Program-made: the position numbers and the translations under genes
Notes under the pieces: generated by a model
Databases searched by the model: none
What the model saw: only the letters and a program-made list of their open reading frames with translations
Told to the model about the DNA's origin: nothing
In this document: positions 45,947-48,464 of the stretch, piece after piece
Position numbering within the stretch: position 1 is the first letter of the stretch
How the letters are laid out: every line of letters begins with the position of its first letter
From: Alphaproteobacteria bacterium
GTDB lineage: Bacteria > Pseudomonadota > Alphaproteobacteria > Thalassobaculales > Thalassobaculaceae
Reading direction: 5' to 3'
Assembly (NCBI GenBank): GCA_024742275.1
Contig: JANSYS010000003.1
Coordinates: 62,001-126,000, forward strand
Length of the DNA: 64,000 nt

Positions 45947-47059
45947 ATGGCGTCGAACAAGAAACTGCTGGTGCTGCCGGGCGACGGGATCGGGCCGGAG
46001 GTGGTGGGCGAGACCCTGCGGGTCGTCGACTGGATGGCGAAGAAGCGGTCGGTGTCCTTCGACATCGACGAGGGCCTGGTCGGCGGCGCCGCCTACGACG
46101 CCCACGGCACGGCGCTCACCGACGAGACCATGACCGACGCCACCCATGCCGACGCGGTGCTGTTCGGCGCGGTCGGCGGTCCGCAATACGACGACCTGCC
46201 GTTCGAGCTGAAGCCGGAGCGCGGCCTGCTGCGCCTGCGCAAGGAGATGGACCTGTTCGCCAACCTGCGCCCGGCGATGGTCTTCCCCTCCATGGTCGAG
46301 AATTCGTCCCTGAAGCCGGAGCTGGTGTCCGGTCTGGACATCATGATCCTGCGCGAACTGACCGGCGGCGTGTATTTCTGCGAGCCGCGCGGCATCGAGG
46401 ATCTCGCCGACGGGACCAAGCGCGGCTTCGATACCCAGGCGTACACGACGCCGGAGATCGAGCGCATCGGCCGGGTCGCCTTCGACCTGGCCCGCAAGCG
46501 CCGCGGCAAGGTCACCTCGGTCGAGAAGGCCAACGTCATGATGTCCGGCGTGCTCTGGCGCCAGGTCATGACCGACCTGCACAAGGCCGAGGGCGAGGGT
46601 CTCGAGTACGAGAACATGTTCGCCGACAACTGCGCCATGCAGCTCGTCCGCGCCCCGAAACAGTTCGACGTGATCGTCACCGACAACCTGTTCGGCGACC
46701 TTCTGAGCGACTGCGCGGCGATGCTGACCGGCTCGCTCGGCATGCTGCCCTCCGCCTCGCTCGGCGCGGAGGACCCGACCACCGGCAAGCGCCACGCCCT
46801 GTACGAGCCGGTCCACGGCTCCGCCCCGGACATCGCCGGCAAGGGCATGGCCAACCCGATCGCCGAGATGCTGAGCTTCGCCATGCTGCTGCGCTACAGC
46901 TTCGACATGGCCGAGGACGCCGACCTGCTGGAGAAGGCGATCGACAACGTGCTGGCCGGCGGCATGCGCACCGCCGACATCATGGCCCCGGGCAAGGCGA
47001 AGGTCTCCACCGCGACCATGACCGACAGCATCCTCAAGGAACTGGATAAGCTGGTCTGA
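45947..47059 (+). CDS. leuB: 3-isopropylmalate dehydrogenase
   Basis: NAD-dependent oxidative decarboxylation of 3-isopropylmalate to 2-oxoisocaproate. The 370-residue protein begins [16 protein letters not shown], has [14 protein letters not shown], the substrate site RELTGGVYF, and [28 protein letters not shown] with the metal-binding Asp residues, ending in [22 protein letters not shown] 45947 is preceded by AGAGGAAATCGAGAC. A palindromic repeat element begins 15 bases after the stop. Confidence 0.97.
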
Positions 47060-47074
47060 TCCGGTCTCCGATCT

Positions 47075-47160
47075 GCCGTCATCCTGACGCAGGTCAGGAT
47101 CATGCCTCGCGAGCGACAACCGCCCGAGGCTCGGTCCTGAAGCGAGTTCAGGATGACGGC
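47075..47160. repeat. compound palindromic repeat between leuB and asd
   Basis: An 86-base element whose outer arms GCCGTCATCCTGA and TCAGGATGACGGC are perfect inverted repeats. Inside are three further hairpins: ATCCTGAC-GCAG-GTCAGGAT (47081-47100), GCCTCG/CGAGGC (47104-47130) and TCCTGAA-GCGAG-TTCAGGA (47135-47153). Very similar GTCATCCTGA…TCAGGATGAC units are dispersed in many alphaproteobacterial genomes, from memory. It may also stop leuB transcription ahead of the asd promoter. Confidence 0.75.
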
Positions 47161-47194
47161 GGGCACGTTGGACAGGAGACCGAGACGATCCCCC

Positions 47195-47223
47195 TTCCCC
47201 ACACCAGCGAAATCGCTTATACG
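47195..47223 (+). promoter_or_regulatory. candidate promoter for the asd leader
   Basis: TATACG (47218-47223, 4 of 6) with a weak TTCCCC (47195-47200) 17 bases upstream. The expected transcription start is about 47230-47232, which coincides with the ATG of the leader ORF, so the transcript would be leaderless. Confidence 0.4.
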
Positions 47224-47231
47224 TCCTCCCC

Positions 47232-47345
47232 ATGAACGCACTGGCTTCCATCGCTGACCTTCGTCTCCGCCCGGCCTCCAAGGCCGTGGGCGTCGGCGTC
47301 TGCGCGTTCACCACCCCGAAAACCACCACCAAGACCACCGGCTAG
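47232..47345 (+). CDS. Thr/Lys-rich leader peptide upstream of asd
   Basis: A 37-codon ORF that starts MNALASIADLRLR and ends AFTTPKTTTKTTG. Seven Thr codons (all ACC) and two Lys codons fall within the ten codons 47310-47339, just before the TAG at 47343. It precedes asd by 93 bases; aspartate-semialdehyde dehydrogenase feeds Thr and Lys synthesis, so the codons match the pathway end products as in classic leader peptides such as thrL. There is no Shine-Dalgarno, but a -10-like box 8 bases upstream suggests a leaderless transcript, as reported for the rhizobial trpL leader. Being short, it could be chance in other contexts; the codon run, the position and the downstream complementarity make it convincing. 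Confidence 0.75.
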   Translation: MNALASIADLRLRPASKAVGVGVCAFTTPKTTTKTTG

Positions 47346-47432
47346 CGGCTTCCGCCCTTCCGTTTGCGTGCTTGCGATGCAGGACCGGGGGGCGTAAACC
47401 CCGGCCGAACGTCGCGTACATCGCGGAAGGAG
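47346..47432 (+). promoter_or_regulatory. alternative RNA structures between the leader peptide and asd
   Basis: Directly after the leader stop, CTTCCGC (47349-47355) and CCTTCCG (47356-47362) are each complementary to the asd ribosome binding region GCGGAAGG (47423-47430). Between them CCGGGG/CCCCGG (47385-47404) forms a 6-base-pair hairpin and CGCG/CGCG (47413-47425) a small one abutting the binding site. No T run follows, so an intrinsic transcription terminator is not apparent; control of asd translation, or Rho-dependent control, fits better. Confidence 0.5.
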
Positions 47433-47438
47433 AATGAA

Positions 47439-48464
47439 ATGGGCTACAGAGTTGCCGTCGTCGGCGCCACGGGTGCGGTGGGACGCGAGATGCTGACCAC
47501 GCTCGCCGAGCGCGACTTCCCGGCCGACGAGGTCATCGCGCTCGCGTCCGGCCGGTCCGCCGGGAACGAGGTCTCCTTCGGCGAGAAGGGCACCCTCACC
47601 GTGCAGAACCTGGCCGAGTTCGACTTCTCCAAGGCGGATATCGCGCTGTTCTCGGCCGGCGGCGACGTCTCCCTGGAATACGCGCCGAAAGCCGGTCAGG
47701 CCGGTTGCGTCGTCATCGACAACAGTTCCGCCTTCCGCATGGACCCGGACGTGCCGCTGATCGTGCCGGAGGTGAACCCGGGCGCGCTCGCCAAGTACGG
47801 CAAGAAGAACATCATCGCCAATCCGAACTGCTCGACGGCACAGATGGTCGTGGCGCTGAAGCCGCTGCATGACGCTTTCAGCATCAAGCGTGTGGTCGTC
47901 TCCACCTACCAGTCGGTGTCCGGCGCCGGCAAGGAGGGCATGGACGAGCTGTTCAATCAGACCCGTTCGGTCTACGTGAACGATCCGATCGAGCGCGAGA
48001 CCTTCACCAAGCAGATCGCCTTCAACGTGATCCCGCACATCGACAAGTTCATGGAGGACGGGTTCACCAAGGAAGAGTGGAAGATGACGGTCGAGACGAA
48101 GAAGATCCTCGACCCGGACATCGAGGTGGTCGCCCAGTGCGTCCGCGTTCCGGTGTTCATCGGCCATTCCGAGGCGGTGTTCATCGAGACGAAGAAGCCG
48201 ATCGACGTCGACGGCGCGCGCCAGGCGATGCAGGGCTTTCCGGGACTGATCGTCGTCGATCACCGGGCCGATGAGGGTTACGTCACGCCGGTCGAAAGCG
48301 CCGGCGAGGACGCTGTCTATGTCAGCCGCATCCGGGTCGACCCGACCGTGAAGAACGGTCTCGTCTTCTGGTGCGTCAGCGACAACCTGCGCAAGGGTGC
48401 GGCCCTGAACGCGGTGCAGATCGCCGAGGAGCTGGTTGCCAAGCATCTGAAGCAGGCCGCCTGA
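47439..48464 (+). CDS. asd: aspartate-semialdehyde dehydrogenase
   Basis: Reduces aspartyl phosphate with NADPH, the branch-point step to Thr, Met, Lys and diaminopimelate. The 341-residue protein has VAVVGATGAVGREML (NADP site), the active-site Cys in IIANPNCSTAQMVVALKPLHD, YQSVSGAGKEGMDEL and the catalytic His in VPVFIGHSEAVFIE. GGAAGGAG precedes ATG 47439 by 7 bases. It is controlled, by inference, through the Thr/Lys leader upstream. A GNAT gene follows after 7 bases. Confidence 0.97.
   Translation: MGYRVAVVGATGAVGREMLTTLAERDFPADEVIALASGRSAGNEVSFGEKGTLTVQNLAEFDFSKADIALFSAGGDVSLEYAPKAGQAGCVVIDNSSAFRMDPDVPLIVPEVNPGALAKYGKKNIIANPNCSTAQMVVALKPLHDAFSIKRVVVSTYQSVSGAGKEGMDELFNQTRSVYVNDPIERETFTKQIAFNVIPHIDKFMEDGFTKEEWKMTVETKKILDPDIEVVAQCVRVPVFIGHSEAVFIETKKPIDVDGARQAMQGFPGLIVVDHRADEGYVTPVESAGEDAVYVSRIRVDPTVKNGLVFWCVSDNLRKGAALNAVQIAEELVAKHLKQAA

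Follow-up and report, generated by a model that had tools for sequence, protein, structure and literature searches.

We analysed a 64,000-nucleotide stretch of an alphaproteobacterial genome (the window), in which a short open reading frame (ORF) lies between leuB and asd and ends 93 nt before the asd start codon at 47439 (Table 1). The asd gene stands at a branch of the aspartate pathway from which the cell draws lysine, threonine, methionine, isoleucine and the diaminopimelate of its wall, and the asd of the window is 94% identical to that of T. litoreum. Positions 47077-47158, between leuB and the first promoter-like element (P1), hold a palindromic repeat (CGTCATCCTGA...TCAGGATGACG), and the half-unit CGTCATCCTGA-N6-TCAGGATC is present in 17 copies in the window's genome.

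Table 1. Features of the leuB-asd region, in window positions.
Feature	Positions	Strand	Basis
leuB (3-isopropylmalate dehydrogenase), upstream neighbour	45947..47059	+	Pfam PF00180, E=1e-130
P1 -35-like box CTTCCC, 18 nt upstream of the P1 -10 box	47194..47199	+	Read by eye from sequences
P1 -10-like box TATACG	47218..47223	+	TAT position in 10/10 leaders
Leader-peptide ORF, 37 codons, predicted leaderless	47232..47345	+	ORF reading, shuffles, relatives
Thr/Lys sensor block TTPKTTTKTT, ten codons (seven ACC, one AAA, one AAG)	47310..47339	+	Codon string unique in genome
Segment 2 CGCCCUUC, 8 nt past the stop codon, putative partner of segment 3 (anti-sequestor)	47353..47360	+	Folding; above composition in L007-L009, not in the window
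Anti-Shine-Dalgarno CCCUUCCG, predicted 5' arm of the sequestor hairpin	47355..47362	+	Folds, RNAalifold, motif counts
P2 -35-like box TTGCGA	47372..47377	+	TTG-N20-TA[ACT] conserved before family asd genes
Segment 3 GGGGGGCG, putative partner of segment 2 or segment 4	47387..47394	+	Folding, RNAalifold
P2 -10-like box TAAACC	47395..47400	+	Conservation; predicted start near 47407 inferred from spacing
Segment 4 CCCCGGCC, predicted apical hairpin with segment 3	47399..47406	+	GGG:CCC invariant in 8 sequences
asd Shine-Dalgarno GGAAGGAG, predicted 3' arm of the sequestor hairpin	47425..47432	+	Folds, z-scores
asd (aspartate-semialdehyde dehydrogenase)	47439..48464	+	Pfam PF01118 and PF02774

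The ORF encodes MNALASIADLRLRPASKAVGVGVCAFTTPKTTTKTTG and ends in FTTPKTTTKTTG. Nine of the final 14 residues are Thr or Lys, a score of 9; the highest score of any ORF was 6 when the 300-nt region upstream of asd was dinucleotide-shuffled 2,000 times. The codon pattern AAR ACN ACN ACN AAR ACN ACN (KTTTKTT) occurs a single time in the 4.69-Mb genome, in this ORF. A short ORF with a run of codons for end products of the pathway thus precedes asd, as in an attenuator. The leader peptides matched no Pfam or NCBIfam model, and Rfam returned one chance-level match for the window region and none for 12 relatives.

Comparison of asd upstream regions from relatives, a class-wide sample and a Rhizobiaceae-type family indicated that this codon run is conserved. 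A Thr/Lys score of at least 7 was reached by 33 of 215 upstream regions (a partly redundant set, with some genomes in two collections), by a single shuffled sequence out of 2,150 and by no reverse complement (0 of 215), and the distribution of best scores was bimodal. In the sample of the window's family, leaders occur in four genera and are missing from the rest, among them Nisaea and the symbiont Candidatus Endolissoclinum faulkneri, which has a reduced genome and a 75% identical asd. Beyond this family, the class sample contains about eight further groups of family level with Thr/Lys-tailed short ORFs before asd, and 39 of the 50 sampled Rhizobiaceae-type loci score at least 7, with AKTTTKTV as the typical tail. 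A strict 36-nt codon pattern from Rhizobiales had no match in the 387 class-sample genomes, because that sample holds few Rhizobiaceae. The placement of the leader is constant, 80-140 nt before asd with the Thr/Lys run ending 0-5 codons before the stop, and the tail is kept between lineages while the N-terminal half of the peptide varies. The same division is visible within the genus, where comparison with the window gives 5-6 synonymous and 7-8 non-synonymous differences in codons 1-25, and none synonymous and one non-synonymous in codons 26-37. The first-pass annotation, made from the window, had described the ORF and its codon block exactly as they are found here, and had read them as an amino-acid-responsive leader for asd. 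That reading is supported by the recurrence of the tail before asd across Alphaproteobacteria, with an antiterminator/terminator pair in several lineages, and the search in related genomes that it called for finds the short ORF in four family genera and in other groups.

Ten leaders, from the window lineage and L107, were compared at their 5' side: each has TAT at positions -14 to -12 relative to its start codon, with a shuffle frequency of 0.02-0.15 each, and a CTTCCC/CTTTTC/CTTGCG-like hexamer at 17-18 nt spacing can be read by eye in leader-bearing lineages. No Shine-Dalgarno-like sequence precedes the leader ATG in the window lineage. In the window and L003, the stretch from the box to the ATG consists entirely of pyrimidines apart from one G inside the box, which makes the A of the start codon the first purine downstream of the box. 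Alphaproteobacteria commonly have leaderless mRNAs, with 375 in Caulobacter and 171 cited for S. meliloti (PMC4117421). It is likely that the leader is translated from a leaderless transcript, as had been proposed, and the position of the TAT box and the missing Shine-Dalgarno support this at the level of sequence only. Leaders of Rhizobiales have CGGAG ahead of the ATG; leaderlessness is therefore not general.

No intrinsic terminator with a U-run lies between the leader and asd in the window or its leader-bearing relatives, and a scan of the window region for E. coli-type promoters and terminators found none, as expected for this group of organisms. The window therefore does not appear to hold a classical transcription attenuator of the thrL/trpL type. 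All leader-bearing family members have a CCUNC-type anti-Shine-Dalgarno segment about 10-20 nt past the stop. When the RNA beyond the stop is folded optimally, this segment and the asd Shine-Dalgarno are paired with each other and form the foot of a long hairpin. Of 72 leaders from all groups, 62 carry a CU-rich motif of this kind after the stop, where 14.6 would be expected. Of the four sequences from the genus, three had a folding z-score for the hairpin against shuffles between -3.6 and -4.1 and the fourth (L002, which has an insertion) had -1.2; the score was -3.1 in L009 and -1.9 in L008; in L005-L007 the hairpin was no more stable than shuffles. The whole 235-nt leader folded as one RNA was not better than shuffles (z -0.12), in contrast to the region after the stop alone. 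RNAalifold recovers the hairpin from eight sequences, with sparse two-sided changes (4 of 20 consensus pairs). Taken together, a hairpin predicted to mask the Shine-Dalgarno, as in a translational attenuator, appears to be conserved in relatives with moderate strength, weakly in L005-L007.

The same RNA can form a competing helix, in which bases after the stop are predicted to pair with the apical G-run and hide the anti-Shine-Dalgarno (CGCCCUUC:GGGGGGCG in the window, GGUCCUCC:GGGGGACC in L008, GGGCCUCC:GGGGGCCC in L005 and L006, and GGGCCUUC:GGGGGCUU in L007). Its sequence differs on both sides between lineages, and because the register shifts by 1-2 columns it was judged sequence by sequence and not by alignment pair columns. 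The helix exceeded shuffles in L007, L008 and L009 (p 0.01-0.03), and that of the window itself was no better than shuffles (p 0.41). It prevails in simulated nascent transcripts lacking the asd Shine-Dalgarno. At equilibrium, folding lets the masking hairpin win over the competing helix in the window genus, so that the open state must be kinetic. In a simulation with the ribosome at the stop, the asd Shine-Dalgarno of the window was 0.48 unpaired, that is, half masked only. Going by the usual toeprint distance, a ribosome whose A site holds the stop codon should cover the RNA to about 47355, at the start of segment 2, and a stall at a Thr codon would leave segment 2 free; the geometry therefore fits.

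We propose, as the likely reading, that 47232-47345 is the leader-peptide gene of a cis-acting attenuator through which asd would answer to Thr and Lys supply, mainly at the level of translation. That a Thr/Lys leader acts on asd in cis is the part of which we are most confident. The first-pass annotation named no output; its leader role stands, and we amend it with masking of the ribosome-binding site, the probable output here given the absence of a U-run terminator, although as the main output in this genome we consider masking an evenly balanced call. Sequence comparison provides the leader with its conservation, the boxes of P1 and P2 and the Shine-Dalgarno hairpin; we infer that the ribosome stalls, in what order the RNA folds, in which direction control acts and that the output is translation, as follows. 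The P1 transcript would start at or beside the leader ATG and be translated without a Shine-Dalgarno. With ample Thr-tRNA and Lys-tRNA, the ribosome would reach the stop and cover segment 2, leaving CCUUCCG (47356-47362) to pair with the asd Shine-Dalgarno in the long hairpin and switch asd off on this transcript. Under shortage of Thr or Lys, the ribosome would stall on the ACC/AAA/AAG block with segment 2 free, which would then pair with nascent segment 3, burying the anti-Shine-Dalgarno and opening the asd ribosome-binding site.

A second promoter-like element, P2, lies inside the switch region. TTGNNN-17 nt-TA[AC]NNN is found before asd in nearly all family members, with or without a leader, and CTTG-N20-TA[ACT] has a shuffle frequency of 0.0005-0.02. 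The P2 region (47372-47407) has a GC-rich stretch ahead of the predicted start and overlaps a palindromic hairpin. P2 explains part of the conservation of the masking hairpin, a portion of which coincides with it and is also present in relatives without a leader, so that this hairpin is partly conserved for another reason. If active, P2 would give asd mRNA with a free Shine-Dalgarno and no leader, and in the window's family it probably yields a basal message that escapes control. An asd transcript starting downstream of 47345 had been named beforehand as grounds for rejecting the leader; part of the asd mRNA probably does start there, from the family-conserved P2, so this holds in part and by prediction. 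The claim that the leader controls all asd expression is consequently weaker. Taken further, asd could be transcribed mostly from P2 (47372-47400), leaving the leader as a minor or decaying input in this genus, a reading to which the presence of P2 boxes in genera without a leader and the restriction of leaders to four genera of this family sample lend some weight. We nevertheless regard it as doubtful, since the genus has kept the Thr/Lys codons and the anti-Shine-Dalgarno segment while codons 1-25 vary, and since L005 and L006 have a leader and lack the P2 boxes.

The main rival to ribosome-binding-site masking as output is premature transcription termination, and it draws on other lineages, where the same kind of leader is predicted to end in an intrinsic terminator. 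By the standard logic of attenuators, the terminator forms when segment 2 is covered by a ribosome that has reached the stop, and the antiterminator forms when a ribosome stalled on the Thr/Lys codons leaves segment 2 free. The classical arrangement of 2:3 against 3:4 with a U-run is found in L092/L127/L128/L134, L107, L117, L152, L153 and L212, where segment 2 lies 4-10 nt from the first base of the stop codon and has its complement in the 5' arm of a U-run hairpin rich in GC (in L212, UAA CGCGGGCCUCUUCG, then AAAGGCCUGCGG AUUAUC CCGCGGGCCUUUUUCG). Against shuffles, the 2:3 helix stands out clearly in L212, L127/L128 and L134; most of the others are borderline, and that of L152 does not exceed them. 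In the window, the same leader could act through the apical GC-rich hairpin without a U-run, or through Rho on unsheltered RNA, once it is fully translated. Beyond the terminators after the homologous leader, this reading may appeal to L016, a family member without a leader, in which a hairpin at the corresponding place, followed by UUUUU directly before asd, looks like an intrinsic terminator. Against it stand the lack of either a U-run or a terminator call in the window and its leader-bearing relatives, and the anti-Shine-Dalgarno segment, which is seen in leader-bearing members and not in Nisaea-type relatives without a leader. We therefore judge termination unlikely to be the output here.

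The codon choice of the leaders bears on whether the peptide frame matters at all. In Rhizobiaceae leaders, the Lys codons AAA and AAG stand at 126:14, against 1:69 in three asd genes of the same group, and among Thr codons ACG outnumbers ACC by 141 to 104. The strong preference of Rhizobiaceae-type leaders for AAA and ACG is the reverse of what the asd genes show, which use AAG and ACC. This preference supports decoding as a selected trait and disfavours a mere C-rich Rho site; the choice of Lys codons in particular seems difficult to account for except by decoding. The Thr/Lys run could otherwise be a by-product of RNA that is rich in C and A and poor in G, for instance where Rho loads, with no role for the frame, and the final 60 nt of the window ORF are indeed C-rich (26 C, 16 G). 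We find this highly improbable, because in every lineage the runs lie in frame and finish 0-5 codons ahead of a stop, the Rhizobiaceae leaders favour codons that lower C, and the reverse-complement control gives none. Equally remote is a trans-acting small protein like peTrpL of S. meliloti, which does act in trans (PMC7298713), as the peptide differs from genus to genus outside the Thr/Lys tail and has no match among family models.

The first-pass annotation cited no description of such a leader for alphaproteobacterial asd. A prior proposal exists, and it is the breadth and the RNA architecture that are new. The S. meliloti sORF SEP5 has six Thr and three Lys codons near its 3' end and was proposed as a possible leader peptide; its translation was shown by Ribo-seq and Western blot, and it was described as conserved only in Sinorhizobium, without an RNA mechanism (Hadjeras et al. 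2023, PMC10117765). We take the gene downstream of SEP5 to be asd, judging by the published description. SEP5, known here from that description, resembles the window leader in its Thr/Lys codon cluster at the 3' end, and the tail SKTTAKTTTKTV of several Rhizobiaceae-type loci has exactly its published composition. It differs in being described as confined to one genus and without an RNA mechanism, whereas the leaders described here extend across Alphaproteobacteria with terminator and ribosome-binding-site variants. A literature search for descriptions of Thr-Lys leaders found none, with the survey of proteobacterial attenuators by Vitreschak et al. (2004) outside its scope. Control of asd in Alphaproteobacteria is little described, and the comparison widens a suggestion published for one genus to the class as a whole, with proposed mechanisms, yielding a testable regulator in rhizobia and many other genera.

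Known attenuators share parts of this design. The E. coli thrL attenuator senses Thr and Ile and controls thrABC through an intrinsic terminator. The asd leaders resemble it in their Thr-codon peptide and, in terminator-bearing lineages, in the 2:3 versus 3:4 logic; they differ in sensing Thr/Lys and, in the window lineage, in lacking a terminator and in being apparently leaderless. The thrL leader itself has eight ACC codons (PMC1183508). Rhizobial trpL (rnTrpL) has a leaderless leader ORF read from the first base of the transcript, whose peptide is also trans-acting (PMC7298713). A leaderless leader ORF in an alphaproteobacterium is what we predict for the window, although trpL differs in its Trp codons, its target trpE, its intrinsic terminator and the trans action of its peptide. 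In ermC-type translational attenuators, drug-induced stalling governs RNA after the leader peptide that masks the Shine-Dalgarno of the next gene. In the LEU element of Actinobacteria, the codon run itself pairs with the Shine-Dalgarno (PMC1262725). Both resemble the window in that RNA downstream of a leader peptide masks the next Shine-Dalgarno, and differ in their genes, codons or drug-induced stalling, and structures. Tentatively, and with somewhat less than even confidence, we suggest that a class-wide alphaproteobacterial Thr/Lys asd leader kept its sensor and changed its output, with a terminator in some lineages and, in the window's family, ribosome-binding-site masking by a leaderless leader combined with leader-free mRNA from a second promoter. 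Related switches that join one sensor to different output devices would be useful for studying how attenuator outputs evolve.

The Rhizobiaceae-type loci L218-L267, with leader tails typically AKTTTKTV, have a hairpin CUCUCCCCGG/CCGGGG and GGAGAG ahead of the asd Shine-Dalgarno; in many of them another hairpin is present, whose short tail is rich in U and C. This layout makes a third architecture. Small ORFs before asd in L061, L146 and L165 have a leader-like Thr content. They combine a signal-peptide-like start with a Thr/Pro-rich end and were left out of the count as secreted-protein ORFs; in L061 a U-run terminator follows the ORF. Additionally, a recurring frame SGWxKVAGR... about 260-390 nt before asd in L087, L144, L185, L190 and L207 probably reflects a neighbouring gene read out of frame or on the opposite strand.
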